Of a stretch of 37,559 nt of DNA, positions 6,170 to 37,488 are shown piece after piece; position 1 is the stretch's first letter; each line of letters begins with the position of its first letter. A program made the translations under genes and the position numbers. The stretch is taken from positions 1 through 37,559 of the forward strand of contig CAKZKA010000096.1 of NCBI GenBank assembly GCA_937120965.1. The letters run 5' to 3'. A model generated the notes under the pieces. It worked only from the letters and a program-made list of their open reading frames with translations, ran no database searches and was not told the DNA's origin. The stretch comes from an uncultured Chloroflexota bacterium (GTDB lineage: Bacteria > Chloroflexota > Chloroflexia > Chloroflexales > Chloroflexaceae).

Positions 6170-6743
6170 CGGAGAAACTACAAAGATTTTGGTTACGGTG
6201 GGGAAAGCGGGTTTCCCCACACCCCTCCCGGCGGCAAGGGCCCGGGGGGCTATCCACGGCTGGCGCATCAGGCGAGGCGTGCACAAAGCGCACGTGGGCC
6301 TGGCCCGCAGCAGGCGCGCGGTTGTCGTCCACCAGGAGGAGCGGGGCAATACTTGCCAGTCGGTTGGTGGCAGCGAGCGTGTAATCCTTGCCGGCTTCCA
6401 CGGTCAGATCGGCGTCGATCACCACCGGCGCGGTTGCTCCGGCGGGCACTATGCGAATATTGTAGGCCCTCGGGGCCAGCGAGGCGTAAGAACTGACCGC
6501 CCGGAACGGCACGTTCGTCCAGGCCGGCACACCATTCACCAGAACATCTACCGGCGGTGCATCGGGCGCGGCGTGTACGGCGCGCACCCGGGCGCGTTCG
6601 GGGTCGGGAAAGGGCCGGCCGGCGATAATGTCGGCGACGTGGGTGCCGTGGCCCTCAAAATCGATCGGGTTAGGATCGGGCGCCAGGGGCGGGCTGTTGG
6701 CGCCGCCGCTCCAGGCTTCGCCGACAAAATCGTAGCCGCCCAC
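6147..6743 (-). pseudogene. Broken subtilase/DUF4397 chimera
   Basis: The reading frame starts mid-domain, at a GTG two codons downstream of an in-frame TAA. It first encodes a subtilisin-family fragment (YDFVG, then GHGTHVADIIAG, the region of the catalytic His) and then directly a DUF4397 domain (RAVHAAPDAPPVDV, DLTVEAGKDY). A second DUF4397 repeat stops at 'HASPDAPAVD', where the frame runs into a GGGGAAA palindrome repeat and the element end at 6145-6163. There is no signal peptide, no catalytic Asp or Ser, and no proper end. It looks like the remnant of a larger exported protease from which the middle was deleted. Confidence 0.7.
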
Positions 6744-6979
6744 TGCTGGTTATCTTCCGTACATCCACCGGCTGTCTTGCTCCGTAGAGATAGGCGGACA
6801 GGCAACCCGCCAACTCGAGACCAGCGCGTTTGTTCGCAGGCAATTGCGAGACGCGCGCACAGGCGCCCCCACCGGATACTGCTCCGGAGGCGCCGAGGGG
6901 AAAGATCCCCGGCATGGGCTGGCCTTGCTGTGTCCAGAAAAGGTCGTTACCAGTACGTAAGCGTATGGAGGATCGCCTG
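6744..6979. other. Intergenic, probable debris of the broken gene
   Basis: About 236 bases between the broken chimera and the DUF4397 gene. No intact frame is convincing. An SD-like GGAGG at about 6967-6971 serves the start at 6980. Confidence 0.4.
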
Positions 6980-8293: not shown

Positions 8294-8312
8294 CCGCACC
8301 ATCGGCAAATAT

Positions 8313-8338
8313 GCGCGGAGGGGTTGACCCCTCCGCGC
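8313..8338. terminator. Strong stem-loop after the DUF4397 gene
   Basis: An 11-bp perfect stem (GCGCGGAGGGG / CCCCTCCGCGC) with a TTGA loop, 20 bases after the stop codon. It lacks a following T tract on the plus strand, so termination may be weak or the hairpin may only stabilise the message. It lies between two convergent genes. Confidence 0.5.
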
Positions 8339-8434
8339 AGTGACCCGTTGGCGCAAACAAGTCCCGGATTATAGTTTTGCACCTGGACTTATCCGCGGAC
8401 CAATCGCGCCGACAATATCCTTCCTCTTCGCAAG

Positions 8435-21500: not shown

Positions 21501-22667
21501 TCACGGAGAAACGCGGTTCTGTCCATACTGATCGGCCCATTTTTCGCTAAAGCCCAGGGCAAACGCGCGGGCGATCAGGTCAAGGGTGGCTGCTGGTGTG
21601 AGTGCCGGCGGGGGATGGGCCAGGATCTCACGGTACGCCGGTAGCCGTTGCGGGCGACCAGATACCGCCGCGGCCAGTTGGGCCGCGTAACTGGCGAAAA
21701 CGTCGGGCAGACAACTCCGAGGCAAAACATCCCAGAGGAATTGATCGCGCAGGTGCAGCAGCGCGGCCACGGCAGCCACCGCAGGCGGATCGTTCAGCAC
21801 GACCTGGAGGTTGCGCGTCAGGAGTTGCCCATCATCGTCATTCAGGCCGGCGCAGATGGCTGCGCTGAAGGTCTCCTCGCGCGCGCCCAGACGCCGGAGA
21901 AGCGCCAGCGTGCTACACTGCGCCGCCGGTGACAGGCCATTCTGACGCGCCAGAGCCTGCCGCAACGCCGCCTGCACGCCGCGCGCAATGAGTTCTCCCA
22001 GGCGGGTGTGCTTGCCGGCGCCGGTCAGTGGCGCACCATCCAGCCGGGCGGCAATGGCGATCTGATCCGTCCCGGTCCCTGTCGCCAGGCCATCGGAATA
22101 GCATGAGGGGACGCTCAACTCTTGAAGCACTGCTGTCTTTGCCTCGGTCGCCAGCGTGACAGCTTCGATCAGTGCGCCGGAGCGCAGTTCGCGATTGATG
22201 CAGAGCATGATCACGATGGTGCCAGCGTGCGGCGCGAGAATATACCGCCCATCCTCTTCGTGGTAGGCGGCGGGATCGCCAGCGCGGCCCGCATTGGTCT
22301 CGACCCCGGCGGTGACAATCGCGACGACCTCCAGGTCGCGGAAGCGTTCGTGGGCCATACCGGCCATATGCATGCTGGCTGCCGTGCCCAGGGTGGCGCA
22401 ACGATCGGCGGGCAGGCCATGGCGTGTGGCGATCAACTCGCGGTAAGCATCAGGGTGGTGGATGGCCAGTCTATGGATCTGGTCGCTCAGCCAGTGCCCC
22501 TGCGGTTCGCAGGACTGATGGTTGTAGAGGTACTCCAGGTCATCCCGTATCCCGCCTGCGCTGCTGCGACAGGTTGAGATGACCCGGTGTGGACACAAGA
22601 AGCGCACGTAGATGATCTTGTCGGCGCGGTGAATTTCCACGCCGTCATAGTAGCGTTCCAGTAACAT
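21501..22667 (-). CDS. cbiZ: Adenosylcobinamide amidohydrolase (CbiZ)
   Basis: A 388-aa enzyme expected to remove the aminopropanol arm from adenosylcobinamide or pseudocobalamin, giving adenosylcobyric acid for rebuilding of the wanted cobalamin. Seen: the CbiZ signatures TAGVETNAGRAGD (residues 120-132), EAKTAVLQEL (176-185) and ATGTGTDQI (196-204), followed by 'GKHTRLGELIARGV'. The core spans about residues 30-245; about 140 further residues at the C-terminus are not typical of short archaeal CbiZ and end in repeat-like sequence. An ATG at 22667 follows AGGA; a TTG one codon earlier is also possible. It is the last gene of the minus-strand corrinoid locus, after cobN. Confidence 0.88.
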   Translation of the reverse strand: MLLERYYDGVEIHRADKIIYVRFLCPHRVISTCRSSAGGIRDDLEYLYNHQSCEPQGHWLSDQIHRLAIHHPDAYRELIATRHGLPADRCATLGTAASMHMAGMAHERFRDLEVVAIVTAGVETNAGRAGDPAAYHEEDGRYILAPHAGTIVIMLCINRELRSGALIEAVTLATEAKTAVLQELSVPSCYSDGLATGTGTDQIAIAARLDGAPLTGAGKHTRLGELIARGVQAALRQALARQNGLSPAAQCSTLALLRRLGAREETFSAAICAGLNDDDGQLLTRNLQVVLNDPPAVAAVAALLHLRDQFLWDVLPRSCLPDVFASYAAQLAAAVSGRPQRLPAYREILAHPPPALTPAATLDLIARAFALGFSEKWADQYGQNRVSP

Positions 22668-22870
22668 CAATCCTGTCCTCGGCGCTCATCGTATACCAGT
22701 TGGGGGTCCAGCCCGCTCATACCTCTCTCGAAAGAGGCATGGGGAACCCAACCCGGGTTCCCCATACCCCTGCCCCGGCGGAGAGTGCAGGAGGGCGCCC
22801 CGGGAGAATCCCTGCCTATTTCTGAGGGGTGCGACGGGGCCGTATGGCGCAGCCGCAACAATCTCATCGC
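22668..22870. repeat. Gap between cobN and cbiZ with a palindromic repeat
   Basis: About 200 bases that carry a GGGGAACCC...GGGTTCCCC palindrome (22741-22763). Apart from this repeat nothing is recognised, so cobN and cbiZ are less tightly linked than the cobN-chlI-chlD genes. Confidence 0.6.
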
Positions 22871-25800
22871 CTATTCCGCCTGCTCTTCGATATCGCCTTC
22901 GATTTCCAGATACAGGCGACCCAGGTGTTCCTTCATCGCCTCGTCGGCCTGCCACATTCCCCGATTGATGGCTTCGAGCAGTCGCCCCAGAATGCTGTGC
23001 AGGGCATGCGGGTTGACCTCGCGCATCCACTCGCGCATGGCCTCATCGAGGGTATAGCGCCGGGCCATGTCTTCGTACATCCAGTCTTCAACCACATCAC
23101 CCACGGCGTCCCAGATAAAGGCGTTGTCCACGGTATGGGCCATATCGCCGGCGCCTTTGAAGCCATGGCGCTGGAGGCCGGCGATCCATTTGGGGTTCAG
23201 GATGCGCGCGCGGAAGATCCGCCGGCTTTCCTGCCGAACGTCACGGTACAGGACGCGCTCGGGGTCGGAGGCGTCACCGCTGTAGGCGTGTGGAGCGCGC
23301 CCGGAAGCGGTCTTGACTGCCAGGCCAAACCCGCCCAGATAGGCAGCCCAGTCATCGTCGCTGTACAGGTCGTATTCGCGGGTATCCTCGTTTTTCACGA
23401 TCAGTTGGATGCCGGCCAGCCGTTGGCGAAAGACGGCATGGCGGGCAACACCGTAGACCTGGCGCCCGTAGGCGTAGCCGCCCCAGTTGACGAAGGTTTC
23501 GGCCAGGTCGGCGCGATCCTGCCAGGCCTGTGCTTCGATCATCTCGGCAATCCCGGTACCATAGGCTCCTGGCGGTTCGGCGAAGATGCGCAAGGTGGCC
23601 TCGCGCAGAGCGGCCTCGGGGTCATAGCCCTGACGCAGCAACTCCTCGCGGTCGCGCAGCACGTTGTGCCGCAGCATGTTCGTCTCCGGCGGCTCATCGA
23701 GCAGAGCGACCATACGTACTGCATCGTCAATCAGTTCCACCAGATTGGGGAAGGTGTCTCGAAAGAGCCCCGAGATGCGCAGGGTCACATCGATGCGCGG
23801 AAACTTCAACGCCGCGGCGGGGATCGGCGCCACCCCCTCGACCCGCCCGCTGGAGCGATTCCAGAGCGGGCGCACGCCCATCAGGTAGAGTATCTGAGCG
23901 ACGTCCTCGCCCATGGTGCGCATCGTTGGTACGGACCAGATGACCATACCCATCGTTTCGGGGAACTGGCCGGTTTCGCTGCGGTAACGTTCGACCATCG
24001 CATCGCCCAGAGCCACGCCGATTTCCCAGGCGGCCGGAGTGGGGATATTGAGCGGATCGACAGTGTAGAAGTTACGCCCACTGGGTAACACGTTGGCCAT
24101 GCCCCGGGTCGGCGCGCCGCTACCGCCGGGCAGGACGTGCCGGCCTCCAAGGGCTGCGTGGATGGACCCCAGTTCGTCAACTGTCTGGGCCAGGCGCGGG
24201 ATGAGCGTATCACGCACATAGCCGAGCGTCGGCGCCAGTGGTCCGGACTCGCAGGCGCGCGTGTCGCCGTCGAGCATGGCCTGGATCTGGCGCAGGGCTT
24301 CGGCGTGGATAGCTTCGATGGCGGTTCCGGCGCTGGGGAAACGTCCGGCAGGATCGGGGGCGCCGCGGTCGCGCAGCAAAGCATCGTAGTCGTAGCCCCA
24401 CTGGCGCGCGATCACCTCGCGCAGGGAGGGTATCGCGCCATTGGGCAGGCGCACCAGTTGAGCCAGGAACTCGACCAGTTGCGCGCCTGTGGGCGCTTCA
24501 CCCAGTATGTGTAACCCGTCACTGATCGCCGTATCGGCCAGGTCGCTGATGTAGCTGTGCAGTCGGCGCGCAAACGCATCAAAGTCGGCGAACGCTCCCG
24601 CCTCGTCAATCTCCAGATCCCGGTCGAGGTGACTGGCGACGGTCAACTCCCAGATCGCGCGAGCCAGGATGGGTAGTTGAGAAGGGTTCATCGCTGCCAT
24701 CTGCATGTATTCGAGCAGGCGCGCATCGAGGATCGCCAGATGCTCGTAGCGTTCAGCGCTGGTCATCACCGGGATCAGGTAATCAACCACGCAGGCGTAG
24801 GAGCGGCGCTTGGCCTGTGCGCCTTCGCCAGGGTTGTTGATGATATACGGGTAGATGTTTGGCAGGTCCATGATCGCCATATCGGGGTAGCAATGCGCCG
24901 AGAGGGCCAGGGACTTGCCGGGCATCCACTCCAGGGTGCCATGGGTGCCAACGTGGATCACGGCGTCGGCTCGAAATACATCGCGGAGCCAGCGGTAGGT
25001 GAGCAGATAGGCCGGCGGCGGCGGCAACAGGGGGTCATGGACTTTGTCGGCGTCGTGGGCGAAGCCGCGGGGAGGCTGAAGGCCAATGTAGAGATTGCCG
25101 TTGATGATCCCGTTGATAACGACCCGGTCATTGTGGGCCAGGATGGGACCAGGCGGCGGCCCCCACTCCCGGCTGATCTCCTGATGACGCTCGGCGGGCC
25201 ACTCCGCTACCCAGGGCTGATACTGCTTCGGCGCGGCCAGGGCTACTGCGCGGGTTGCCAGGGCGTCGCTGGTTTGCCAGCGCGCATCGTTGGTGGCGTG
25301 GGCCAGCAGATCGGCGATCACGTCTTCGCCCGAAGCGTACCGGCGTTCAACCCGATAGCCCTGATCGGCGAGTTGCTGGACCAGGCGCGCCACGCTTTCG
25401 AGCGAGTCCAGGCCGGTAGCGCAACCGATCCGTTCATTCGTTGGCGGATAATTGTGAAACACGATCGCTACCCGCTTCTCAGCGTTGGGGATCAGGCGTA
25501 ACCTGGCCCAGCGCAGAGCCATACGCGCCAGGGCCGTCACGCGCTCGGCGATGGGCCGATGGGCGTTCAGGCGCGCGCCGGTAAGCGGATCGGGCGGCTG
25601 CTCCTCCTGGGTGGCGACCGGCAGCGTGATCAGGACGCCGTCGAATTCGGGCTGTGCCGCATTGATCGCCACGTCCATCGGAGTCACACCCTGCACTGTC
25701 TCACTCCAGTAGGTATAGGGCGAAAACAGTACCATCGCGTGCAGGACCGGCACGCCCAGGCGGGCGTAGACATCGGCCACTGCCGGGGTGGAAAGGCTGA

Positions 25801-26596
25801 TGGCGAAGGCCATCATGTTGATCAGCGCGTGGATCAGCGGCTCGCCATCGTACATAAAGTAGTTTTCGATGACCCAGTCGGAGATGCGGTTGTTGCGGAT
25901 CGGATCGGGCATGCGCATGTAGAAGCATGCCAGGGGAAAGCCACCCTGCCGCTCGATCTCGCGGATCAACGCGTCGACCCAGCCCAGGTTACCATCGTGA
26001 AAGTAGCTGGTGTAGAACCACATGCCGATTATCGGGCGCCCGGAACGACGCAGCTCGTCGACAGAGATGCCCCGCGCGGTCAGATAAGCCTCCAGGGTCG
26101 GAGCGCTGCCGATGTCGGGATGGTAAAGCGCCTCCGTCAATTGAGGTTGCGGCGGATCGTGGGGCAGGATCAACCCCCGGCGGCTCGCGAGCATGCAGTA
26201 CAGGTTTCGCCAGTTGTCGCAGCCGTCGAACTGGATGTAGCGCCGCACAGTGTCAAAGAAGGGACTCCCGTAGTCAGTTGATAACTCCTGCGAGAGCGCC
26301 AGCGCATCTTCGTCGGAGGGATGGATGTAGCAGTAGGCCAGGCTTTCACGCGCAGCGGTCACCAGTTCGTGGAAGTGGGGGCACGAGGCGGCGCCGCCGT
26401 GCAGCAGGACGATCAGCGCATCGGCGGAGCGGATGACTTCATTGGCGAAAGCGACTGCCTGCCCGCGATCCGCCAGATTGCTTCCCACGCGCGCCTGGAG
26501 CACAAACTGTCCACGGTGTTCCTGCTCGAGGCGGAGCAGCGCCTGACGCGCCGCAGGAATGCCATTCCCGGTTGCGCTCACCAGAACGATCTTCAT
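22871..26596 (-). CDS. cobN: Cobaltochelatase large subunit (CobN)
   Basis: A 1241-aa ATP-dependent chelatase subunit that holds the tetrapyrrole and inserts cobalt (into hydrogenobyrinate a,c-diamide in the aerobic pathway). Seen: the CobN/BchH core '[14 protein letters not shown]', '[12 protein letters not shown]', and a C-terminal '[14 protein letters not shown]' block. The N-terminus ([13 protein letters not shown]) is not the DUF3479 start of magnesium-chelatase BchH, and the corrinoid neighbours favour CobN. BchH remains the alternative, because phototrophic Chloroflexia carry several BchH copies. It overlaps the chlI-type gene by four bases (ATGA), so the chelatase subunits are translated together. 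Confidence 0.87.
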
Positions 26597-27567
26597 TGTG
26601 GCACCTCGTGGATGGCGTCAAAGGGCATGCGGCGCAGACGGTGGGGCAAGGCCAGTTCGGCGGCCTGACGCACGTCCTCATCCTCTACCCGTTCCCGCCC
26701 GTGCCAGGCAGCCAGAGCTCTGGCTGTCTTCAGCGTGATAATGTCGGCACGGTGCCCATCCACCCCCAGCTCCTGGCACTGCCGGGCAATGGCGAGCATC
26801 CGGGCGCGTTCGACCGTGACCCGGGGGTGCACTTCGAGGGCCGCAACGATGCGTTCGCGCAACCGGTCAGTCTCTGCGGCCCACCGGCGGGCGAAGCCGA
26901 CCGGGTCGGTCTCATAGTCCAGCCGCCGTTCCATGATCGCCACACGTTCCTCGGTATCCCGAATGCCCTCGACCCGCACACACAACCCGAAGCGGTCGAG
27001 GAGTTGCGGGCGCAACTCGCCCTCTTCGGGGTTCATCGTGCCGACCAGAGTAAAGCGGGCCGGATGGCTGAAGGATATTCCCTCACGCTCGACCGTATTG
27101 ACTCCCAGTGCAGCCGCATCGAGCAGAATGTCTACCAGATGGTCATCGAGCAGGTTGACCTCGTCCACATACAGGAAGCCACGATGGGCCTGAGCCAGCA
27201 GACCCGGCTCGAAGCGCTTCTCACCGTGCTTGAGGGCGTACTCCAGATCAAGCGTACCGACAACGCGGTCTTCGGTGGCGCCAACCGGCAATTCAACCAC
27301 GCGCACCTTGCGCCAGACTACCAGCGCGTCGGCTGGCAGCCCATCGCGCCAGTGGTCGTCTGGCGCGCGCTGGAAGGCATCGCCGGCAACCACCGGGATT
27401 TCCGGCAGAATATCGGCCAGGGCGCGCACGGCGGTGGACTTGGCGGTGCCCTTCTCGCCACGAATGAGCACTCCAGAGATGCGCGGGTCAATCACGTTCA
27501 GGATCAGCGCCAGCTTCATGCGCTCCTGACCCACGATCGCTGCGAAGGGGTACGGAACCGGTTCCAT
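26593..27567 (-). CDS. ChlI/BchI-type AAA+ chelatase subunit
   Basis: A 324-aa AAA+ ATPase that forms a hexameric ring with the ChlD-type subunit and drives metal insertion by the large subunit. Seen: Walker [10 protein letters not shown] (37-45), Walker B FLYVDEV (131-137), sensor-1 '[11 protein letters not shown]' and 'LLDRFGL'. Length is close to the usual BchI (about 340-350 aa). It sits between chlD-type (6-base gap) and cobN (4-base overlap), so it most likely serves CobN in place of CobS, as known for many bacteria that lack CobST. It could also be shared with a magnesium chelatase. Confidence 0.9.
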
Positions 27568-27573
27568 AGGAGG

Positions 27574-29445
27574 TCACCTCGATTGTACAAGGGCGATCAG
27601 ATCATTGGCTCTGAGATCGTCGAGCGCGTAATATGCCGCGCCAAGGGCCTGAGCGAGGTCGCGGGCCAGGCCGAAGCGGACCACGCCGGGGGCCTCGGTG
27701 TCTACCACAATCGGGGTCAGGCGTGGCTCAAGCGCCAGATGTTCGGCAATACGTAGGGCCTCACCCCATGGATCGGCGCCGGGGGTCACGGCAAGATTGG
27801 CCTTGCCGTCGGTGATCACCACCAGGATGGGGCGGGCGGCAGGCTCTCTTGCCAGGTGCAAACGCACGACCCGCGTGGCTTCGGCCAGGCCCGCAGCGAG
27901 TGGAGTGCGTCCGCCGACCGGAAGGGCGCGCAATTGCCGCGCGGCCAGTTCAATGGACGCTGTTGGAGGCAGGACCAGAGTTGCCCCGTGGCGCCGGAAG
28001 GTGATCAGGGCCACACGGTCACGCTTCTGGTAAGCATCGGTAAGCAGGGCCATAATGGCGCCTTTGGTTGCAACCATGCGCCCCCGGGCGCCCATCGAAC
28101 CGCTGGCATCCACCACGAAGAGCAAAAAGTTGCCGATACGCCGCTCGCGCTGGCGCTCTTGCAGATCCTGAGGACGAATGGCGATTGCCATTCCCTGCGG
28201 ACGTGAACGGTGATGTTGTTCGGGAGCGGCGGCCCGAATTGTCGCATCGAGGGCGATGTCGCGTCCACCCCGGCCAGGCACGGCCCGCACGTAGCGACCC
28301 AGGCGCATCGTCCGGGTGCGTGAGCGACGCCCGGAACCACGGCGTGTCAGACGGTCGCGGCGGGTCTCGATTCGCTGCGCCACGAAACCGCTGTCCACCT
28401 CAAAGACGCGCTCCCGATCAGCAGCGGGGTGGCTCGGTTCGGGGCCTGCTTCGGCGGGCGGAGGGCCGGGGCTGTCGGGAGGTGGCGCATCGCCGGGTAG
28501 CTGGAGATCAGGGGCGGGTGGCGAGTGGGCGGGTGGCGGCGGCGCCAGTTGGGGGGGCGGTGGGGGTGGCGGCGGCGGCGGCAGGGCCTCGCGCCGGCGG
28601 TGGCCCAGCACCAGCGGCGCCAGCCGTTCGATATCAGTCAGCGTAACCTCTGGCCGCCCCTCCAGTGCGGCCAGGGCCATCGCCGCGCGTTGCAGGGTCA
28701 GATCGGCACGGTGGCCCGCGACCTGGTGTTGAGCGCACAGTTCGGCGATGAACATACGCAGGCGTGAAGCCAGACCTACCCGGCCCATCTGCTCGCGCGC
28801 AGCCAGCAGTTGACCCCGCAGACGCTCCTCCTCGGCGTGAAAACGGCGCTGAAACTCCGGCGGATCGCGGTCGAACTGCTCACGACGCTCGAGGACGAGC
28901 ACCCGGCGCTCCAGATCCGCCTCAGCCCGCACCTCGACACAGAGGCCAAAGCGATCAAGCAGATGAGGGCGCAACTCACCCTCCTCAGGGTTCATCGTGC
29001 CTACCAGAGTTATGCGCGCCGCATGGGCCGCAGCGACACCCTCTCGCTCCACTCGATGCCAGCCTGCGGCCAGCGTATCGAGGATCACATCCACCAGGTG
29101 ATCGTCGAGCAGGTTGACTTCATCAATATAGAGGATGCCGCCATCGGCGCGGGCAAGCAGACCGGCCTGGAAGCGGCGGTGGCCCGTCTGGAGCGCAGCC
29201 CTCCAGTCCAACCCGCCCAGCAGCATCTCTTCAGTCGCATTGAGGGGCAATGTGACAAGAGGAAGTTCGGGCAGTACACTTTGCAATGCGCGCACCGCAG
29301 TAGACTTGGCGGTACCCTTGCCGCCACGGATCAGCACTCCGCCGATGGCCGGTTCAATCACTGCCAGCATAAGGGCCAGCTTCATTGTCTCTTGCCCGAC
29401 GAGCGCCGAGAAGGGGTAGGATGGAACAACTGGCAACCTGATCAC
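27574..29445 (-). CDS. ChlD-type chelatase subunit (AAA+ plus von Willebrand A domain)
   Basis: A 623-aa partner of the AAA+ subunit that links the ATPase ring to CobN. Seen: an intact AAA+ domain with Walker A GGKGTAKST (41-49) and Walker B ILYIDE (104-109), a proline-rich linker (about 288-345), and a VWA domain with the metal site DASGS (446-450) and 'VVITDGKAN'. The Walker A site is intact, unlike many ChlD proteins. I choose the GTG at 29445, which has GGAG about 8 bases upstream. An earlier TTG at 29505 lies inside a MITE and would add 20 unrelated residues. The start overlaps the 3' fragment of the disrupted adenosyltransferase gene. Confidence 0.88.
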   Translation of the reverse strand: MIRLPVVPSYPFSALVGQETMKLALMLAVIEPAIGGVLIRGGKGTAKSTAVRALQSVLPELPLVTLPLNATEEMLLGGLDWRAALQTGHRRFQAGLLARADGGILYIDEVNLLDDHLVDVILDTLAAGWHRVEREGVAAAHAARITLVGTMNPEEGELRPHLLDRFGLCVEVRAEADLERRVLVLERREQFDRDPPEFQRRFHAEEERLRGQLLAAREQMGRVGLASRLRMFIAELCAQHQVAGHRADLTLQRAAMALAALEGRPEVTLTDIERLAPLVLGHRRREALPPPPPPPPPPQLAPPPPAHSPPAPDLQLPGDAPPPDSPGPPPAEAGPEPSHPAADRERVFEVDSGFVAQRIETRRDRLTRRGSGRRSRTRTMRLGRYVRAVPGRGGRDIALDATIRAAAPEQHHRSRPQGMAIAIRPQDLQERQRERRIGNFLLFVVDASGSMGARGRMVATKGAIMALLTDAYQKRDRVALITFRRHGATLVLPPTASIELAARQLRALPVGGRTPLAAGLAEATRVVRLHLAREPAARPILVVITDGKANLAVTPGADPWGEALRIAEHLALEPRLTPIVVDTEAPGVVRFGLARDLAQALGAAYYALDDLRANDLIALVQSR

Positions 29446-29448
29446 AGC

Positions 29449-29943
29449 CGATGCTCCGCACGAAGAGACAGTCAGAGAGACGGTTGAGGTAGCGTATAAT
29501 ACCAATTACCGTTGATGATGCCGCATTGCCTGAAGCGATTTCATGCGTTGTGCTGCCCAGCGTGGCAATCCACAATCCAAAATCTAAAATCCAAAATGGT
29601 ATAACCTCGGCGTTACAGGCTCATCGCGAGCCAGCGCGACCACAGCACGCTCGGCGCGACGGCAGATCGTGCGCGCCATGAACAGGTGCGCCACAGCCAG
29701 GCTTCCCCCTGGGAGAATAAACTGACGTAACGGCGCCAGCGTTGCTTCGAGCTGATCGATAAGCTGTTCGAGAAGCGCCACATCTGCCGCCTGGACACGC
29801 GGAATGTGCCGCGTGTCTTCGATTGCGGTCAGATCGGAGCCGACAACGAAGAGCATATTCTGTATCCCGGCCAGCACCTTGTCCAGTTCGGAGTCATTGC
29901 TGTGCGCGCAGGCTACCCCAATCGCCGCATGGCACTCATCCAC
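29449..29943 (-). pseudogene. PduO-type cob(I)alamin adenosyltransferase, N-truncated and split by a MITE
   Basis: The family would attach adenosyl to cob(I)alamin. The first part (29943 to about 29603) reads VDECHAAIGVA, 'IQNMLFVVGSDL', 'FILPGGS' and ARTICRRAER, all typical of PduO/CobA2. It then enters the MITE and stops as RLYHFGF. On the far side of the MITE the missing end RYLNRLSDCLFV resumes at about 29496. About 26 N-terminal residues, including the TGDxGxT ATP motif, are also absent: a TGA lies directly before the GTG start and the upstream DNA encodes the BtuD C-terminus. The protein is therefore very unlikely to be active. Exact repair of the split is ambiguous by one or two bases. 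Confidence 0.85.
29499..29602 (+). mobile_element. 104-bp MITE, copy 1 (inside adenosyltransferase gene)
   Basis: Bounded by ATACCAATT and AATGGTAT, imperfect inverted ends. Its reverse complement at 34002-34105 differs at one position out of 104. No coding capacity. TA-rich flanks suggest insertion at TA, as for IS630/mariner-type elements, but the target duplication cannot be fixed because both flanks contain several TA steps. Confidence 0.85.
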
Positions 29944-30953
29944 TCACGCACCAGCGCCACTACCTCGCGCAGCGAGGCGACCCGCTGCGGTGGAGCGCCG
30001 TCGAACCACACGTTCCAGCGTGGCGCCAGATCGCTGCCGGAGATGATCACGCGAGCCAGCGCTGGCTCCTCACCGCCGACGATCTGGCACCCGGCCCGCT
30101 CCAGGGCACGGGCGGTCCATGCGCCGATCAGGCCGTCGCCGGTCAGCGCGACGCGCCAGTAGGCCGGGGGGTGAACGCGGAAGCTGCCCTGGTGACGATC
30201 AAAGCTGATGCCCTGGCTGGCAAAGGTTGCCTCAAAGGCCCCGCTGAGCACCAGATCTTCGGGCGCGCCTGTGCGCATCACGCCCTCTGGCGCCAGCAAC
30301 CAGAGCACATCGGCGCTGCGCAGGGCCAGATCCAGGTCATGGGTGGAGAGCAGCAGCGCCCGGTTGGTCTCACGCGCCAGACGGCGCAACAGACCCATCA
30401 TCTCCACTCGCCGCGGCAGGTCCAGGAAGGCAGTTGGCTCATCGAGGATCATCACCAGCGGCTCCTGGGCCAGCGCCCGCGCCACCATCACCCGTTGACG
30501 CTCGCCGTCGCTCAGTTCGTGGACGAGCCTCCCTGCGAGGCTTACCGCATCAACCGCTTCCAGCGCCCAGCGCGCCACCTCCTCGTCTCGCGGTGTCAGC
30601 CGCCCGGTCCAGTCGGTGTGCGGATGGCGCCCGAGGGCAACCAGCGCGTAGGCGGTCAACTGGCCCACCTCGATGCGCTCGGTCAGCACCACGCTGAGGC
30701 GGCGGGCCACCTCGCGCGGGCTGAGGGTGGCAAGATCGGCGCCGTCGAGGAGCACGCGCCCACCCAGGGGCGGCTGCATCCCGACCAGGGTGCGCAGCAG
30801 GGTAGACTTGCCCACGCCGTTCGGCCCCAGCAGGCACACCACCTCGCCAGCGTGGAGGGCCAGGTTCAAATCAGCGGCGATGACCCGTCGTGGCCCACGC
30901 CGGGGGGCGTAGCCAATGCTCAGATCTTCAGTTGCCAGTACAGTGGCACTCAT
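29913..30953 (-). CDS. btuD: Corrinoid ABC transporter ATPase (BtuD type) with C-terminal extension
   Basis: A 346-aa cytoplasmic ATPase that powers the BtuC permease. Seen: Walker A GPNGVGKST (43-51), signature LSDGERQ (147-153), Walker B VMILDEP (167-173) and switch His205 (LLLSTHD). About 90 residues follow the ATPase domain; such tails occur in BtuD/FecE-like proteins of archaea and Chloroflexi and their role is unknown. The family also covers iron-siderophore and haem transporters; cobalamin specificity is inferred from the neighbours. The ATG at 30953 has a G-rich site just upstream, which is part of a repeat. The 3' end overlaps the adenosyltransferase fragment by 31 bases. Confidence 0.85.
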   Translation of the reverse strand: MSATVLATEDLSIGYAPRRGPRRVIAADLNLALHAGEVVCLLGPNGVGKSTLLRTLVGMQPPLGGRVLLDGADLATLSPREVARRLSVVLTERIEVGQLTAYALVALGRHPHTDWTGRLTPRDEEVARWALEAVDAVSLAGRLVHELSDGERQRVMVARALAQEPLVMILDEPTAFLDLPRRVEMMGLLRRLARETNRALLLSTHDLDLALRSADVLWLLAPEGVMRTGAPEDLVLSGAFEATFASQGISFDRHQGSFRVHPPAYWRVALTGDGLIGAWTARALERAGCQIVGGEEPALARVIISGSDLAPRWNVWFDGAPPQRVASLREVVALVREWMSAMRRLG

Positions 30954-31337
30954 CGGACCCCCTCCCTGCGGGGAGGCGCCCGGTTCCCTCCCCCAGCGGG
31001 GGAGGGCCAGGGAAGGGGCGGCCCTCCCAGAGATACCCCACGTTCATCGCGGCGGTGTGCGCCATGCGTATGACCGTCTGAGGTGAACATATGGGGAAAC
31101 CGGGTTTCCCCACCTGTGGTGAGCTTGCCGAACCACCCCCCTCCCTGCGGGGAGGCGCCCGGTTCCCTCCCCCAGCGGGGGAGGGCCAGGGAGGGGGCGG
31201 CCCTCCCAGAGATACCCCACGTTCATCGCGGCGGTGTGCGCCATGCGCATGACCGTCTAACGTGAACATAGGGAACCCGGGGTTGCCCCACGCCCCCGCC
31301 TGCCGGGGCGCCCGGCGCCCTTCACGCCGGTCAGGTG
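30954..31337. repeat. Tandem 179-bp duplication of intergenic repeats between btuC and btuD
   Basis: The unit starting at 30961 (CCTCCCTGCGGGGAGGCGCC) recurs at 31140, with few differences for about 130 bases up to the GTGAACATA motif. The first unit contains an intact palindrome (31093-31111), while at the end of the second it is diverged (31269-31287). The gap carries no gene and breaks the otherwise tight transporter operon. Confidence 0.85.
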
Positions 31338-32438
31338 TCATACACCAAAGGCGCCCCTCCCGACACCACGGCGTAGAATAATCCAGACCACCACCGGCGC
31401 GCCGATCAGCGCCGTGATGGCGTTCAACGGCAGCACTACACTCGTGCCGGGGGCCTGGGCGGCCAGGTCGGCCAGGAGCGCGGCAGTGGCGCCGACCAGG
31501 GCGCAGGCCGGGATCAGCACGCGGTGGTCGGCGCTGCGAAACACGGCCCGGCAGAGATGGGGGATGGCGATGCCCAGAAAGGCGATTGGCCCGCAGAAGG
31601 CCGTCACCGTCCCGGCAAGCACAGCGCCGCTGGCAACAATCCCCACCCGCGCCCGGCGGATGTCCAGTCCCATACTGCGGGCATAGGCTTCGCCCAGCAG
31701 CAGCGCATTGAGCGCCTTGGTCAGCATCAGGGCCAGCAGCAGGCCAAGGCCAATAGTGGGGGCCAGCACGCGCATCTGGGTCCAGGTTACTCCGCCAAAG
31801 CTGCCGAAGCTCCAGGCGATGTAGGCCTGAATGCGCTCAGCGATGCTGAAGTAGAGCAGCAGGCTGACAATCGCGCTGGTCAGGTAGCCGATCATCAGTC
31901 CCAGGATGAGCAGGGTCACGCTGCTCTGTACCCGCCGGGCCAGCACGAGCACCAGGACAAGCACCGCGCCTGCGCCGAGGCTGGCCGCCGCCACCAGGCT
32001 CAGGTTGCCCAGCAGACCGGCGACCGCAAGCAGCGTGTTGTTCGCCGCGCCGACGCTCAGCACCACCAGCGCCACACCCAGACTGGCTCCCGAACTGACC
32101 CCCAGCACAAAGGGGTCGGCCAGGGGATTGCGAAAGAGGGTTTGCATCTGCAACCCGCTAACGCCCAGGGCTGCGCCGGCCAGGGTCGCCGTTAGCGCCT
32201 TGGGGAGGCGAAAGTCGTTGACAATCGTCGTCCAGGTTGTGCGCATCGGCTCGCCGCCAATCAGAATCGTCAACACCTGATCAAGAGGAATGCGTACCGA
32301 GCCGAGCGCCAGACTCAGCATGAAGGCTCCAGCCCAGATCAGCGCCATCACGACCAGTGCCAGCGGTCGCAATCCCAGGCGCGGCCAGGGTGAGGCGGTA
32401 GCGGAGGCTTCGGTAGTCGTCCGGGTCATTTCGGCCAT
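31338..32438 (-). CDS. btuC: Corrinoid ABC transporter permease (BtuC/FecCD family)
   Basis: A 366-aa permease with about ten membrane helices. Seen: the family blocks 'LRLPR.L'-like 'DFRLPKALTATLAGAALGVSG', 'NPLADPFVLGVSSGA', and 'GPIAFLGIAIPHLCRAVF' in the order usual for BtuC/FecCD. A 25-residue hydrophilic N-terminus precedes helix 1. AAGGAG lies 7 bases before the ATG. The upstream DUF4430 gene ends 11 bases before it, so these two are in one operon. Cobalamin as substrate is inferred from DUF4430, toroid, CobN and CbiZ neighbours; no BtuF-type binding protein gene is present. Confidence 0.87.
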   Translation of the reverse strand: MAEMTRTTTEASATASPWPRLGLRPLALVVMALIWAGAFMLSLALGSVRIPLDQVLTILIGGEPMRTTWTTIVNDFRLPKALTATLAGAALGVSGLQMQTLFRNPLADPFVLGVSSGASLGVALVVLSVGAANNTLLAVAGLLGNLSLVAAASLGAGAVLVLVLVLARRVQSSVTLLILGLMIGYLTSAIVSLLLYFSIAERIQAYIAWSFGSFGGVTWTQMRVLAPTIGLGLLLALMLTKALNALLLGEAYARSMGLDIRRARVGIVASGAVLAGTVTAFCGPIAFLGIAIPHLCRAVFRSADHRVLIPACALVGATAALLADLAAQAPGTSVVLPLNAITALIGAPVVVWIILRRGVGRGAFGV

Positions 32439-32449
32439 CGGTAACTCCT

Positions 32450-33763
32450 TTACACGAGCGCATCATCATCATCCAGGCTGCGCCTGGCGCGGCGCTGCGC
32501 CACGATAAGGGCCAGCAGCAGCGCCAGGTATGCCCCAACTGCAAGCGCCAGCCAGAGGAAAAAGCCCGCCGGCGGATCGAAGCTCCGTTGGGCAAAGGCT
32601 GACGGCGCCGGGTATGCCGGTGGTTCCTCGGGCTGCGCCGTAGCAACCTCAGACGCTCCAGCAGCCGGTTGAGTGGCGCGAGGCGCTGGCGGAGCGCGCG
32701 ACGATGGCGCAGTTGAGATCGGCGCCGGCCCGCTGACGCCTGCCGGCGCTTGACCATCCGTCGGCGTGGGCCGGGCAGGCGGAACGGCAAACTCGGTCTG
32801 GAGGATCGCTGCCGTTGCTGTCAGATCGAGCCCGGGTGTCGGGGAGAGGGTCGCCGAGGGCATCGGCAGCGTGGGCGATGGTTCATCGATTGCCACCCGC
32901 GGCGTGACCAGAGGCAGTGGAGTTTCCGCGGCAGCGCCGCGCACCAGCGGCAGATGGATCGCGACTGACTCGCGCGCCGAGACAGTAGTCGTAGGTGAAG
33001 GCCGCACAAACGTCGGTAGGGTCTGACGTGTCGGCGATGCCGCCGGCAAAACTATCGGCGGGTTCACTTCCGGCGGGCGTGACTGCTCCTCCGGCGCCGG
33101 CAGGATTGTAGCAGTGGGTGGCTGTGTGTCCGTTGGCGCCGGGGTATCGTTCGGCGCCGGGGTATCGGTTGAGGTTGGCGTAGCGGTGGGCGTTGCGGTC
33201 GGTGTTGCCGCAGCGCAGATCTCCGCGAAGCTCACCACCCGCGATGGACGGGCTGCACCCTGACCGTGTCCATCGCCCGGGTAGCCCCAGACCCATGCCT
33301 CAACATCACCGGGGAACACCCGTCGGCGGCTCAGATGAACCTCGGCCGGTTCAGGGCGCTGCCAGGCTCCATTGCGGAGCCGGTAGCTCAGCCAGAGGCG
33401 GCTCTGTGGCGCATCACCGGCATAGGCGCAGTAGCACGCCTCTGCTGGACATCCCTCGCTGCCGATGCGGCACACGGCAGTATTCCCGTACTCACGAAAC
33501 ATCTGCACCTCAATCGGCGCGCTCAAGAGGAGTTCTTCGGCACTTACCCCAAAAACATCGCCGGTATCTATACAGAACGTCTCGATGCGCCCATTGCCAT
33601 ACTCGACCACCAGCCCGGCCCGGGTCGGCTGTTGGGCGCGGATCCAACCTGCCAGGGGCAGCCCTGGTACCAGGCCGATCCCCAGTGTCAGCGTAACCAG
33701 AACACCGATCAGATGGCCGATCGTTCTACGCTGAAGTGGGCCAGGTTGTCGAAAGAACTTCAT
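32450..33763 (-). CDS. Membrane-anchored exported protein with DUF4430-like (transcobalamin beta-type) domain
   Basis: A 437-aa surface protein. Seen: an N-terminal hydrophobic export segment, a domain at about residues 45-185 with 'GLVVEYGNGRIETFC', a Cys-rich 'VCRIGSEGCPAEACYC', and 'GDVEAWVWG', then a long Pro/Thr/Ala stalk (about 190-395), a C-terminal membrane helix and a basic-then-acidic tail. The globular part aligns in order with the shorter protein at 34089-34685, and the pattern W...G.W...GDV.GW.WG is that of DUF4430, the family related to the transcobalamin C-terminal domain. It would hold a corrinoid-binding beta domain above the BtuC permease. The start at 33763 is chosen because the frame upstream is repeat DNA. 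Confidence 0.75.
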   Translation of the reverse strand: MKFFRQPGPLQRRTIGHLIGVLVTLTLGIGLVPGLPLAGWIRAQQPTRAGLVVEYGNGRIETFCIDTGDVFGVSAEELLLSAPIEVQMFREYGNTAVCRIGSEGCPAEACYCAYAGDAPQSRLWLSYRLRNGAWQRPEPAEVHLSRRRVFPGDVEAWVWGYPGDGHGQGAARPSRVVSFAEICAAATPTATPTATPTSTDTPAPNDTPAPTDTQPPTATILPAPEEQSRPPEVNPPIVLPAASPTRQTLPTFVRPSPTTTVSARESVAIHLPLVRGAAAETPLPLVTPRVAIDEPSPTLPMPSATLSPTPGLDLTATAAILQTEFAVPPARPTPTDGQAPAGVSGPAPISTAPSSRAPPAPRATQPAAGASEVATAQPEEPPAYPAPSAFAQRSFDPPAGFFLWLALAVGAYLALLLALIVAQRRARRSLDDDDALV

Positions 33764-33767
33764 CTGA

Positions 33768-33915
33768 GGTGAACATACGGGGAAACCCGCGTTCCCCACC
33801 TGCGGTGAGCCTGTCGAACCGCACCCCTGCCTGTGGGGGCGCCAGCCGCTCCCACCAGCAATTGGGACATGGGGAAACCGGGTTTCCCCAACCCCCTCCC
33901 TGAGGGGGGTTGGGA
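33768..33915. repeat. Composite palindromic repeat
   Basis: Two palindromes (33779-33797, 33871-33889) and the 'CTGTCGAACCGCACCCCTGC' module, as at 13985-14125. It directly abuts the start of the DUF4430 gene, so it has replaced or supplies its leader; no ribosome site is seen there. Confidence 0.75.
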
Positions 33916-34001
33916 AAGCGCAGCCCTCCCAAGAACAACCATGTTCATGCTGTGGAAGAGCGCAGCCTTTTCACGAACTGCAATCCGAAATCTGCAATCT
34001 A

Positions 34002-34105
34002 ATACCATTTTGGATTTTAGATTTTGGATTGTGGATTGCCACGCTGGGCAGCACAACGCTTGAAATCGCTTCAGGCAATGCGGCATCATCAACGGTAATT
34101 GGTAT
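34002..34105 (-). mobile_element. 104-bp MITE, copy 2
   Basis: Reverse complement of the element at 29499-29602 with a single mismatch. Its right edge supplies the last codons and the stop of the DUF4430 gene that ends at 34089. Confidence 0.85.
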
Positions 34106-34685
34106 AAAACGATGTACGACTCACCAGCGGCAGATACACGCGCCTGTCAGCAGCCGCCTGACAGGGATTGCCGAAACGCTCATCAAAGACCGGGCCATCA
34201 GCGCCATTCGACCAGATCCACCCGTCTACATCGCCATCGCGCACCACCCGGCTACTGGCGCCAACAGGCGAGATTTGCCAGCCGCCTCGTTCGAGGAGCC
34301 AGTACTGCCAGTAGCGCGGCGGGTAGGCGCACAGACAGCGATCTGCCGGACAGCCTACATCGGCAATGCCACAGATAAATGCGCCATAGCGCTCGTCATT
34401 CACGGCGGCGAAGGGCAATCCCGAGCGCTCAAGCAGCGCCAGCCCGCTGATCCACTCCTCATCGAAGCTAACGCACTGGCTAACTACCTCATTGGGACCA
34501 GTTCGCACAATCAACCCGGCCTGGTTCTGGCGCGTGGGGCCGCTGTGTGGTATTGCCGGCGAGGGGATCGCCAGCGTAACCAGCAGCAGGGCCAGGCAGA
34601 CACCCAGGAGAGCGCGCCAGCGACGCGCCCCATCGTGGCGCGCTATGGAGTGTTGGCGATGGCGCTGTTTTCGGTGGTTGGGCAT
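34089..34685 (-). CDS. Short exported protein with DUF4430-like (transcobalamin beta-type) domain
   Basis: A 198-aa exported protein. Seen: a basic N-terminus and one hydrophobic export segment (about 25-45), then a single domain with 'AGLIVRTGPNEVVSQC', 'ICGIADVGCPADRCLC', 'YWQYWLLERGGW' and 'VRDGDVDGWIWS', which fits DUF4430. Five cysteines are shared in position with the longer paralogue. The C-terminus has 'VYLPLVSR', like the toroid protein's 'RYLPIVGR', and is followed by 'TSFYTNYR', the last residues encoded by the inserted MITE. The chosen ATG has AGGA a few bases upstream. Position between the toroid and btuC genes suggests it works with both. Confidence 0.75.
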   Translation of the reverse strand: MPNHRKQRHRQHSIARHDGARRWRALLGVCLALLLVTLAIPSPAIPHSGPTRQNQAGLIVRTGPNEVVSQCVSFDEEWISGLALLERSGLPFAAVNDERYGAFICGIADVGCPADRCLCAYPPRYWQYWLLERGGWQISPVGASSRVVRDGDVDGWIWSNGADGPVFDERFGNPCQAAADRRVYLPLVSRTSFYTNYR

Positions 34686-34730
34686 TGTCCTGATGTAAAA
34701 AAATAGGAGAAACCGGGTTTCCCCATCCTC

Positions 34731-35054
34731 TCAGGGATAGAGTTTTTGGCGGATGGCGTCCTGATGGGCTGCTGGCCCTCACCCCCTCCCCTGGAAGGGT
34801 TCAGAGGCGGACCGAACATCCGAGCCAACGTGGCTTGCGCCGCATTGGAACGCCCCCGCGCACGGCTCTGGTCTCCCCTCTCCAGCTTCGCTGGAGAGGG
34901 GCAGGGGGTGAGGACGAACCAGCGCATCCCAACGCCAGAGCGCCCGTCGTCGCCCATATGTTCTGTCCGCCCCTGAACCTGGAAGGGGAGGAGGTAGGGG
35001 GGTGGGGTGTCCGGAGTCGGGCGGCGCAGCCCCCAAAAACTCTACACCTGAGAG
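34731..35054. repeat. Inverted repeat bracketing the second MITE-like element
   Basis: CCTCTCAGG..TAGAGTTTTTGG stands at about 34731-34751 and inverted at about 35032-35054, on either side of the element at 34799-34978. The gap between the toroid gene and the short DUF4430 gene (34686-35148) contains only these repeats. Confidence 0.6.
34799..34978. mobile_element. MITE-like dispersed element, copy 2
   Basis: About 180 bp with inverted ends (GTTCAGAGGCGGACCGAAC / GTTCTGTCCGCCCCTGAAC) and internal sequence shared with 21100-21302. Non-coding. Copy 1 is longer by about 23 bases because of an inserted 'CTTCGACAGGCTCAGCGCAG' segment. Confidence 0.7.
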
Positions 35055-35148
35055 GTTTCCCCATCCCCCTGCCTGTGGAGCGGCAAGCCCTCCCCCCGGG
35101 GCGGAGCAGATGCGGGCGCAGCGTCGCTGCGCCGCTCGCAGGTGTGCC

Positions 35149-37488
35149 TTATCGTCCAACAATCGGCAGATAGCGCCGCTGTGGCGCCAGGTCTCCAATC
35201 ACGGCAACCGGACTGGTCGCCAGCGTTCCTCCATCCTGAACTCCATCGGGGTCGCTGAACGTCGCGCGCACCCGCAGCGTGTCAAGGGGGCGAACGCTAG
35301 CGCCGCTAAGGTTGATCGTTGCCCGGAAGGCCCCCGGCTCACGGGTGACCGGCACGCTCTGAAACGCCGCGGCGTCGGCTGAGTTGCGGAGGACATCCCA
35401 CTCGATTGTTGCGCTACCGTTGGCGTTGAGATCGCTTCCGAACGGCGCAATTACCGTGGCCTGGGTACGCTGGGGGTTAATCTCGATGATGATCGGTGCG
35501 GTAATCAGGCGATCCGGGTTCGGCCCGCGATTGATCGGCGTGAAGCTGGAGGCCAGGGTCCCGCTCGTCCGGTAGGGGTAGAAAGCGCCGAGCAGTGCCG
35601 GGATGCTCTGCTGGGTGGCGAGCAAGTTATTAGCTGCCGGGTTGAATCCGCCGCTTGCCGAGCCCCAATGGTAGACAAAGGGGCCATTCGGCTTCTGAAA
35701 GCTGGCCAGCGCACCGAGAGGCCAGCGACCCTGCTTGTGCCACTCCGGACGCGTCAGGTCCACTCCGGCGGCGAGCAACCCCTGAATGGCATAGGCTGTC
35801 GAGTTGCTATTGACTGCGCCGAACGCCTCCCAACCCCCACTGGCGGCTTGCGAGCTACGCAGGAAGTTGATGCCGTTGACAACAGCAGGGCTATCCGGTG
35901 CAACTCCGGCAGCGATCAAGGCCTGCAAAGCAAGACCGGTTTCGTCAACAATGCCCCAACTGCCGCTGGCTGTTTGGAGGCTGTTCAGGAAGGTAATGGC
36001 CTGCGCCGGAATTGGCTCACCGGCTGCGACAAGGCCGAGTATGGCGAAGGACTGGTTGGTGACACTGGCGGCGCCGCTGGTGAAGCCCCGTTGCGCATCC
36101 GTGCTGTAAGAGCCGTTTGCTTGAAGGGTGGATTGCAGATCGGACACCAGATTGAATCCCGCAAAACTGGCAGGGTTGCCGCCTGCCGCCACAACCCCGA
36201 CGATCAACTTGCCGGTTTGAGCCGGGAAGATCCGCTGGCTATCATCGCGTGTGTAGGTAGGCGCAGTGGCAGCGAGGTAATCGAGGGGCGAATTGTTTGT
36301 GCTGCTGCGGAGCTGATTGGGGTTATAACCGGCAGCCACAAAGGCGAACAGAGTATCCAGGGTTGCGTCTGGCGCCGAGGCGCTTCCGAAGGCAGGCCAT
36401 CCGCCATCCGGATTCTGTGCCTCCCTGAGGTAGGCCAGCCCCCGCTCGACCCGCAACGGTCGCCCCAGGAACAGCGGCTGATCGGTAAGGCCGTAGAGTC
36501 CCTCCAGGGTCGCGTAGGCATTGAAGAAGCGCAGGGCGATCACTCCCTCGTCGTTTTGTAACCCGAGCAACGCCTGACGCGGATGAGTGCCGCCCGTGCC
36601 CCAACTGCGGGTCATTGGCACATAGCCGTAGGCTGACAGCGCAGTCATCGCCCAGCCACTACTATTGGCCGGCTCGTCGCCGCCAGTGTCTCCCCAGAGC
36701 GCCGTGCGCCCGGTCTGGCTGGCGCGGAGGAAGGCCAGTGCTCGCTGCACCGCCGGATCGGTCGGCGGCACATTGCCGCTGCCAATAAGCGCCAGCAGGC
36801 CGTAGCCGGTCACATCAATGCTGTTAATCCAGCTCCCGTTCTCGCGCTGCCGGCCAATAAGCCACTGCGTGGCCGCTGGTGGGATAGGTCGCCCCGCAGA
36901 GACCAGCCCCAGGATCGCCAGTGTCTGATTGATCTCGCTAGCCTGCCCGCTGGCAAAACCCTCGACAGCATTGGTGCTGTAGGTGCCATCGGCCCGGTAG
37001 ACGCCTTCGAGCTCGGCGATCAGGTTCACACCGCCGAATTTGTTGCGTGGGTCCAACCTCGCAGCGCTCACTGCCCCCAGCACCAACCCCGCGCGACCGG
37101 GAAACAGATTGTCAGTTGCCGGTGTGTCGTCCTTGTAGATGTAGCCAACCACTTCGGCGGCCAGATAATCGGCCAGGGTGCGGTTGTCGTTAGAGACCAG
37201 CGCATTGGCCGGGTAGCCCACGGCATTGAGCGCCATGAGCAACCGGCTGGTGCCGCCGGGGTCGGCGCCGGCGCCGAACGAGTTAATGCCCCCACTGGAA
37301 ACCTGCTGCGTTCGCAGGTATCCTACCGCCCTCTCAATCGCCTGGCTTTCCAAGAAAGGATAGGTGGCGCTTGCTGACTGCGCTGGCGCAGTCGCCAGGG
37401 TTACACGGGCAGGCCCGACGGTAACTGTGCCGAAGACCAGCGTGACGACGAGCGTGAGCAGTCCTGACCAGAGTCGTTTGCGGTACAT
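35149..37488 (-). CDS. Exported double alpha/alpha-toroid protein, transcobalamin alpha-domain-like
   Basis: A 779-aa exported protein. Seen: a signal peptide (about 1-38); two homologous halves (about 45-335 and 340-640) of alpha/alpha-barrel repeats with 'GSW...D.TG.ALQALIAAG' and 'GGW.AFG' motifs; the recurring 'YSTNAVEGFASGQAS..NQTLAILGLVSAG'-type order; 'ATQQSIPALLGAFYPY' closing the second half; and a beta-rich C-terminal domain ending in 'RYLPIVGR'. The fold is that of prenyltransferase/terpene-cyclase repeats, also used by the alpha domain of intrinsic factor and transcobalamin. No DxDD cyclase motif was found. Leading the corrinoid locus, a corrinoid-capturing role is the best guess. 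The ATG has a weak GAGG upstream. Confidence 0.8.
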   Translation of the reverse strand: MYRKRLWSGLLTLVVTLVFGTVTVGPARVTLATAPAQSASATYPFLESQAIERAVGYLRTQQVSSGGINSFGAGADPGGTSRLLMALNAVGYPANALVSNDNRTLADYLAAEVVGYIYKDDTPATDNLFPGRAGLVLGAVSAARLDPRNKFGGVNLIAELEGVYRADGTYSTNAVEGFASGQASEINQTLAILGLVSAGRPIPPAATQWLIGRQRENGSWINSIDVTGYGLLALIGSGNVPPTDPAVQRALAFLRASQTGRTALWGDTGGDEPANSSGWAMTALSAYGYVPMTRSWGTGGTHPRQALLGLQNDEGVIALRFFNAYATLEGLYGLTDQPLFLGRPLRVERGLAYLREAQNPDGGWPAFGSASAPDATLDTLFAFVAAGYNPNQLRSSTNNSPLDYLAATAPTYTRDDSQRIFPAQTGKLIVGVVAAGGNPASFAGFNLVSDLQSTLQANGSYSTDAQRGFTSGAASVTNQSFAILGLVAAGEPIPAQAITFLNSLQTASGSWGIVDETGLALQALIAAGVAPDSPAVVNGINFLRSSQAASGGWEAFGAVNSNSTAYAIQGLLAAGVDLTRPEWHKQGRWPLGALASFQKPNGPFVYHWGSASGGFNPAANNLLATQQSIPALLGAFYPYRTSGTLASSFTPINRGPNPDRLITAPIIIEINPQRTQATVIAPFGSDLNANGSATIEWDVLRNSADAAAFQSVPVTREPGAFRATINLSGASVRPLDTLRVRATFSDPDGVQDGGTLATSPVAVIGDLAPQRRYLPIVGR

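Follow-up and report, generated by a model that had tools for sequence, protein, structure and literature searches.

A candidate split transcobalamin-like corrinoid trap encoded beside a BtuCD-type importer in a Chloroflexota genome

The stretch analyzed here, called the window, is an entire contig of 37,559 nucleotides (C96, CAKZKA010000096.1) from the genome of an uncultured bacterium of the Chloroflexaceae, which comprises 5.18 Mb in 307 contigs. Its minus strand encodes, in the order of transcription, an exported toroid protein, two Cys-rich proteins of 198 and 449 amino acids (beta1 and beta2), btuC, btuD, a PduO-type adenosyltransferase, ChlD- and ChlI-like proteins, cobN and cbiZ. In animals, transcobalamin holds cobalamin between its toroid and its beta domain. 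We propose, with a probability of roughly 0.7, that the exported toroid and beta proteins constitute a split transcobalamin-like trap that captures corrinoids at the cell surface and feeds an importer. This reading is based on the genes themselves, the fold of the beta protein, homology throughout the class and, in relatives, gene order, fusions, riboswitches and the importer and B12 genes linked to the pair.

The fold of the smaller beta protein ties it to the animal carriers. Beta1 (34089..34685, minus strand) is an exported protein of 198 amino acids with four conserved Cys, for which a model was obtained from 62 sequences of the window and the named loci (mean predicted local distance difference test score, pLDDT, 89.0; predicted template modeling score, pTM, 0.79); alignment A4 contains 60 of 64 beta domains plus two from the window. 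When the model was compared with the PDB by Foldseek, the top 19 rows were all transcobalamin, haptocorrin, intrinsic factor or the bacterial structure 3u7z, which we take to be a DUF4430 protein, and row 20 was a superantigen complex (E 0.036). VIA-align placed the same four kinds of structure (15 rows) at Z 13.2-14.0, with a root-mean-square deviation of 1.6-2.8 over 95-102 residues, and the next fold reached only Z 6.9. Judged by its model, beta1 has the transcobalamin beta-domain fold. Beta2 is homologous to beta1 (38% identity, E 1.3e-13) and is therefore expected to contain the same domain. The relationship to transcobalamin and DUF4430 is visible through fold comparison only, as sequence profiles miss the kinship of the beta domains. 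With the beta profile, a search of the PDB sequences brought up a folate synthase and antibodies, none below E 0.025, and provided no usable link.

Beta2 (32450..33763, minus strand) is also exported; its domain is followed by a stalk rich in Pro and Thr, and a membrane anchor is located at the C-terminus, at about 32501-32557. Its frame is open up to a GTG at 33799 (32450-33799); by eye, the ATG at 33763 suits the signal-like segment better. Hydropathy analysis revealed an N-terminal segment in each of the two proteins (beta1, 27-45; beta2, 26-44) and, in beta2, a further one at the C-terminal end (415-433). The places and strand of these genes, the 11 bases that separate beta2 from btuC, the stalk and the anchor had all been reported in the initial annotation, and the open reading frame list and hydropathy analysis bear them out. 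In an alignment of 71 family members, four Cys and four Trp are among the invariant or near-invariant columns. This alignment (A1) covers 71 of 75 loci after manual removal of four fragmentary or divergent ones, with L004 and L052 (the window itself) replaced by the window references. Residues 181-190 of beta1 match the YLP-box (NF050076, 15.8 bits, cut-off 15), which is listed by NCBIfam as a putative sorting motif.

The toroid gene (35149..37488, minus strand) encodes an exported protein of 779 amino acids, in which Pfam recognizes squalene-hopene cyclase domains at two places (3e-15 and 6.5e-9). A single-toroid profile matches it twice, at residues 47-341 and 345-640; since the profile contained the halves of the window toroid, this double coverage is no independent test (L054 and L056 were excluded from the coverage analysis and the motif tally). 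The two alpha/alpha-toroid halves described initially are borne out by these matches. In the hydropathy analysis an N-terminal segment (6-24) stood out, together with two weak internal ones. Behind the toroid domains comes a C-terminal region, and the last residues are YLPIVGR. In some relatives the C-terminus is formed by LPTTG (L061) or LPESG (L128, L132) and a subsequent hydrophobic segment, a sequence pattern that fits surface anchoring. The assignment to the alpha/alpha toroid class was made by profile for the window toroid and by model for a fused relative, L117, in which beta precedes the toroid (416 amino acids, pLDDT 89.6, pTM 0.85). A pTM of this height across the two domains suggests that they are packed against each other in a defined way. 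One related protein (L118:4336-7068) carries three toroid domains in tandem and is adjoined by two beta genes. Motif counts intended to tell a functional toroid half were too noisy and were set aside.

The two genes travel together through the class. Beta was found in 90 of 150 class genomes (E <= 0.001), which argues against a chance reading frame, and the toroid in 77 (E <= 1e-8); 74 genomes contain both and three the toroid alone. In 68 of these 74 genomes the nearest pair is located within 8 kb on the same strand and contig, and the toroid lies upstream of beta in every one of the 68, with a median of 280 nucleotides between hit edges. The two are separate proteins in the window, as initially described, so that the single-chain arrangement of transcobalamin is absent there; it is present in some relatives. 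Fusions with the toroid first are encoded in L078 (927 amino acids, in the family of the window), L055 (857) and L057 (828), and fusions with beta first in six of 52 named loci (L117, L123, L129, L134, L163 and the truncated L162). Alignment A3 was picked by hand from 22 of 32 fusion or toroid pieces, 13 beta domains and three window pieces. The proposal of two binding pairs in the window finds no support in the copy numbers of the two domains: two betas accompany a single toroid in L114 and L116 and a triple one in L118, and one beta was detected with the double toroids of L124 and L131. Several contigs were fetched twice, among them those of L054/L123, L068/L149, L075/L131, L077/L127, L080/L129 and L066/L141. 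Beyond the phylum, the sample of Actinomycetota consisted of two loci from metagenome-assembled genomes (L147, L164) and one Embleya plasmid record; a search of the plasmids with the actinobacterial beta domain gave no match.

Toroid/beta operons are mostly regulated by B12 in the relatives. Scanning of 54 loci with Rfam uncovered a B12-type riboswitch (RF00174, RF01482 or RF01689) in 46, always on the strand of the toroid and at its 5' side. In 41 of the 46 it falls between -150 and +500 nucleotides from the edge of the open toroid frame. In L067 and L068 it precedes a BtuF-type gene and is about 2 kb upstream, and in L101, L102 and L111 it overlaps by 197-354 nucleotides with the open frame, which there probably extends past the true start on the upstream side. 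Forty of the scanned loci were picked by hand, mostly one per genus together with beta-only loci and other members of the phylum. Among nine further loci, a riboswitch was found in seven, including both Actinomycetota loci from metagenome-assembled genomes, and none in L123 and L134; L127 is the contig of L077, which had been counted earlier. In L055 (603-12058), the B12-riboswitch operon that carries the toroid-beta fusion is adjoined by a separate ECF-like cluster, which is preceded by a molybdenum cofactor (Moco)-type riboswitch and includes an ABC_cobalt-family gene and several lipoprotein-like genes.

The importer that accompanies the pair was tallied in 52 named loci, truncated contigs included, by counting genes on beta's strand whose products resemble seed proteins. 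Components of an energy-coupling factor (ECF) transporter were frequent: T in 36 of 52, A/A' in 33 and S in 22. All six T genes tested matched CbiQ (PF02361) in Pfam, one with 23.2 bits against a cut-off of 25, and all four S genes tested matched ECF_trnsprt, one of them also the riboflavin S family; none of these four, which lie beside beta, matched a CbiM family. By comparison, btuC stands beside the toroid/beta pair in three of 112 loci, many of them short (L067, L068 and L149, the last being the contig of L068). The usual neighbor of the pair is an ECF transporter and not BtuC. CobS is encoded between beta and T in L060, L061, L064, L072 and L082, and was confirmed by Pfam in L061. Loci of Thermomicrobium and its kin (L139, L141-L144, L146) contain toroid, beta, T and A/A', and no S was detected within the 8-kb flanks; nine membrane segments are predicted in the T protein of L066, which is the contig of L141.

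In the window itself, both the FecCD permease and the ABC ATPase of a BtuCD-type importer are found. The permease (31338..32438, minus strand; FecCD 4.8e-74) has BtuC PRK03784 as its top NCBIfam row with 194.7 bits, below the corrinoid-specific equivalog cut-off of 334, and the top row of the ATPase (29913..30953, minus strand; ABC_tran 6.6e-29), a corrinoid ABC transporter ATPase, is likewise under its cut-off. The initial annotation had the toroid and beta proteins hand corrinoids to BtuC in place of BtuF, and here the same-genus relatives tell another story. In L068, of the same genus, a riboswitch is followed by a Peripla_BP_2 protein with a lipoprotein-like start, the toroid, two other open reading frames, beta1, beta2, btuC, btuD, a second Peripla_BP_2 protein and chelatase genes. 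L067, also of this genus, has one Peripla_BP_2 gene between toroid and BtuC plus two more by similarity, and in L127 a BtuF-type gene follows beta, again by similarity. Three of the Peripla_BP_2 proteins in the toroid clusters of L067 and L068 were tested with Pfam (3e-26, 2.9e-25 and 5.7e-32). Most relatives encode an ECF importer at this place, and these two loci instead encode BtuCD together with two or three BtuF-type proteins; the L067 cluster contains two BtuCD sets.

Compared with L068, the window has the adenosyltransferase gene in place of the second Peripla_BP_2 gene, and the first would fall past the contig end: a BtuF-type gene just outside the window, directly upstream of the toroid, is what the same-genus relatives show at that spot. 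No BtuF-type gene is present on the window contig, and no exported copy was found in the source genome, where the first Peripla_BP_2 gene of L068 has no clear counterpart (matches were confined to its residues 19-128) and the three PF01497 hits are listed frames that by eye are devoid of a signal sequence. Two loci of this genome, L001 and L002, contain Peripla_BP_2 genes that are near-identical by eye and do not look exported; they lie on different contigs, and one is apparently truncated or recombined. The replacement of BtuF is therefore unsupported, since L067 and L068 carry BtuF-type genes; given the lack of a clear source-genome copy, it may still apply to this one genome. Going by these two genomes, the BtuCD of the window probably works with a BtuF-type lipoprotein.

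The mode of action that we envisage follows the animal carriers. The toroid and the beta protein with its transcobalamin fold would close around a corrinoid at the cell surface, and the loaded pair would pass it on to the importer at the membrane, with an anchored protein keeping the complex close by. In many relatives this importer would be an ECF transporter (T with A/A', often S), and in the window BtuCD. The isolated alpha and beta domains of human transcobalamin assemble only when cobalamin is added (PMC5599065, which like the other papers cited by such numbers is drawn on in excerpt), and PMC11107200 agrees that domain association depends on cobalamin. Because the human domains join upon cobalamin, the bacterial pair may be expected to assemble on its corrinoid as well; binding between toroid and beta and the subsequent hand-over are what we infer from the combined data. 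It is conceivable, although we lean somewhat against it, that much of the phylum uses a secreted B12 clamp of two polypeptides, joined by the vitamin itself and serving as an interchangeable front end for ECF and BtuCD. Transcobalamin and intrinsic factor of animals would then be its eukaryotic version with the halves fused, and the clamp might even replace S where none is detected near the operon, for instance in the Thermomicrobium loci.

A number of observations weigh against the proposed trap. The window toroid did not match the animal cobalamin-binding family (presumably PF01122) in Pfam at E up to 1, where the only rows were squalene-cyclase, Pec_lyase and TED. The DUF4430 profile (PF14478) matched no protein of the source genome or the window, and among the 71 members of the beta family it gave two matches, none significant (best E 0.16); the initial label 'DUF4430-like' is hence apt for the fold of beta1, on the strength of Foldseek and VIA-align, and not by profile. 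In the L117 model the toroid appears to resemble terpene cyclases more closely than transcobalamin: squalene-hopene cyclase was the best match (Z 24.2 in VIA-align), transcobalamin stood at Foldseek rank 49 (E 5.3e-4), and its not being among the 50 VIA-align rows is taken as an absence and not as contrary evidence. The transcobalamin-like folds of the initial annotation accordingly stand for beta1 and for the alpha/alpha class of the toroid, and a closer kinship of the latter to the transcobalamin alpha domain is doubtful. Eight of the 54 scanned loci lack a riboswitch, and the toroid is at a contig end in four of them (L079, L096, L106, L109) and not in the other four (L059, L061, L066, L089). 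The window gave no Rfam hit either; it ends 71 nucleotides upstream of the toroid, and any riboswitch would be expected beyond the contig because it is located further upstream in the same-genus relatives. Both genes are present on different contigs or further apart in six of the 74 genomes that contain them, and 16 genomes have beta with no toroid hit. On the Embleya megaplasmid (L172), a toroid gene (5542-6855) and a gene recognized as beta-like by eye (8109-8864) lie on opposite strands with no riboswitch hit. Finally, the genome encodes a cobaltochelatase, so that B12 may be made by the organism and the system may serve salvage only.

Three other explanations have to be considered. The BtuF-type lipoproteins may be the true substrate binders, with the toroid and beta proteins as accessory surface scavengers or bystanders in the operon. 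The Peripla_BP_2 genes that flank or interrupt the clusters of L067, L068 and L127 speak for this, and in this genus the proteins of that type next to the toroid might suffice for the hand-over by themselves. Of the 52 named loci, however, L127 and L149 (the L068 contig) are the only ones with a BtuF-type gene on beta's strand, so the pair is retained without one in most relatives, and the source genome yielded no exported copy, where a gap at the contig end is possible. We consider this explanation unlikely.

Import of cobalt rather than of a corrinoid is also compatible with some of the data, as B12 riboswitches also control cobalt ECF transporters and the T components accompanying the pair match CbiQ. 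The S genes tested are nevertheless ECF_trnsprt and not CbiM, beta shares its fold with corrinoid carriers and the permease of the window is BtuC-type, which leaves cobalt import very unlikely. It is hardly credible, lastly, that the toroid is a terpene cyclase-like enzyme and beta an unrelated surface domain. Squalene-hopene cyclases are the best profile and fold matches of the toroid, and a PDB sequence search with the fusion profile put terpene cyclases first among the best 60 of 90 rows; but the window toroid and 102 of 105 toroid frames (some from the same contigs) lack the D.DD motif, which is catalytic in terpene cyclases, and the proteins are exported, regulated by B12 in relatives and in some of them fused to beta. 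The surface trap for corrinoids remains the reading that we prefer.

Downstream of the importer, the minus strand continues with further genes linked to B12. The PduO-type cobalamin adenosyltransferase (29584..29943; Cob_adeno_trans 2e-30) precedes a chelatase pair (26593..29505) composed of a ChlD-like (27574-29505) and a ChlI-like subunit (26593-27567). These are followed by the cobaltochelatase subunit CobN (22871..26596), with E 0 for CobN-Mg_chel and 926 bits for TIGR02257, above the cut-off of 822, and by a CbiZ-type adenosylcobinamide amidohydrolase (21501..22670; 8.3e-54). Elsewhere in the window, positions 17257-19767 encode a molybdopterin oxidoreductase that bears a Rieske_3 domain at its N-terminus, the arrangement of arsenite oxidase large subunits. 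An extragenic palindromic repeat around GGGGAAACCCGGTTTCCCC, nested in longer repeats, recurs between genes across the window, with copies at 31091-31112, 33777-33798, 33869-33890 and 34704-34725, among others.

How does the pair relate to systems already described? It shares with transcobalamin, intrinsic factor and haptocorrin the beta fold, a toroid partner of the alpha/alpha class, export of both parts and, in some relatives, the single chain. It differs in consisting of two or three separate proteins, with a doubled toroid that is apparently nearer to terpene cyclases and a Cys-rich beta, in being encoded in a bacterial operon with an importer and in lacking membership at the level of sequence. 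The pair probably works like transcobalamin, yet neither its sequence nor its chain layout places it in that family. A DUF4430 domain has been placed at the C-terminus of animal transcobalamins (PMC4350170), and BtuFCD was the only prokaryotic B12 transport system known in 2009 (PMC2667541). In a Lactobacillus relative (Lactobacillales), one lipoprotein was annotated as 'additional lipoprotein component of putative cobalamin ECF transporter' and a DUF4430 gene was found beside rtpR (PMC9963975); judging from the excerpt, the two are likely one protein. Such DUF4430 lipoproteins resemble our beta proteins in fold class (3u7z, Z 13.7) and in their link to B12 uptake by ECF; unlike them, they are not mentioned with a toroid partner in the excerpt, and the DUF4430 profile gives no significant match to the beta family examined here.

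In Lactobacillus delbrueckii, the cluster nrdJ-cbrS-cbrT-pduO has been described (PMC5997447). The ECF-CbrT cobalamin transporter is similar to the loci examined here in combining an ECF importer with B12-linked genes, whereas the excerpt contains no mention of a toroid/beta trap and the window has BtuCD. BtuG and BtuH of Bacteroides likewise catch B12 at the surface and supply it to an importer; they differ in having other folds and the outer-membrane BtuB as partner.

The SCO2321 and SCO2322 families, which bear Streptomyces locus names with adjacent numbers, are also toroid-like and beta-like, respectively. Their NCBIfam profiles match the window toroid (SCO2321_fam, 3e-28, 98.9 bits, cut-off 300) and beta1 (SCO2322_fam, 1.1e-4, 22.6 bits, cut-off 85) distantly, as they do the relatives, and every match is under the curated cut-offs; SCO2322_fam was matched in 26 of 201 phylum genomes and over its cut-off in none. 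A literature search, outside of which lay most subscription journals and all bioRxiv preprints, retrieved neither a paper on the function of these two families nor a report of a bacterial transcobalamin-like toroid/beta pair. If the proposed reading is correct, a function would be suggested for the SCO2321 and SCO2322 families, and surface capture of B12 that serves both ECF and BtuCD importers would be explained. A riboswitch-controlled pair with both transcobalamin domain types, sometimes fused into a single chain, would then represent an equivalent, in bacteria, of the B12 carriers known from animals.

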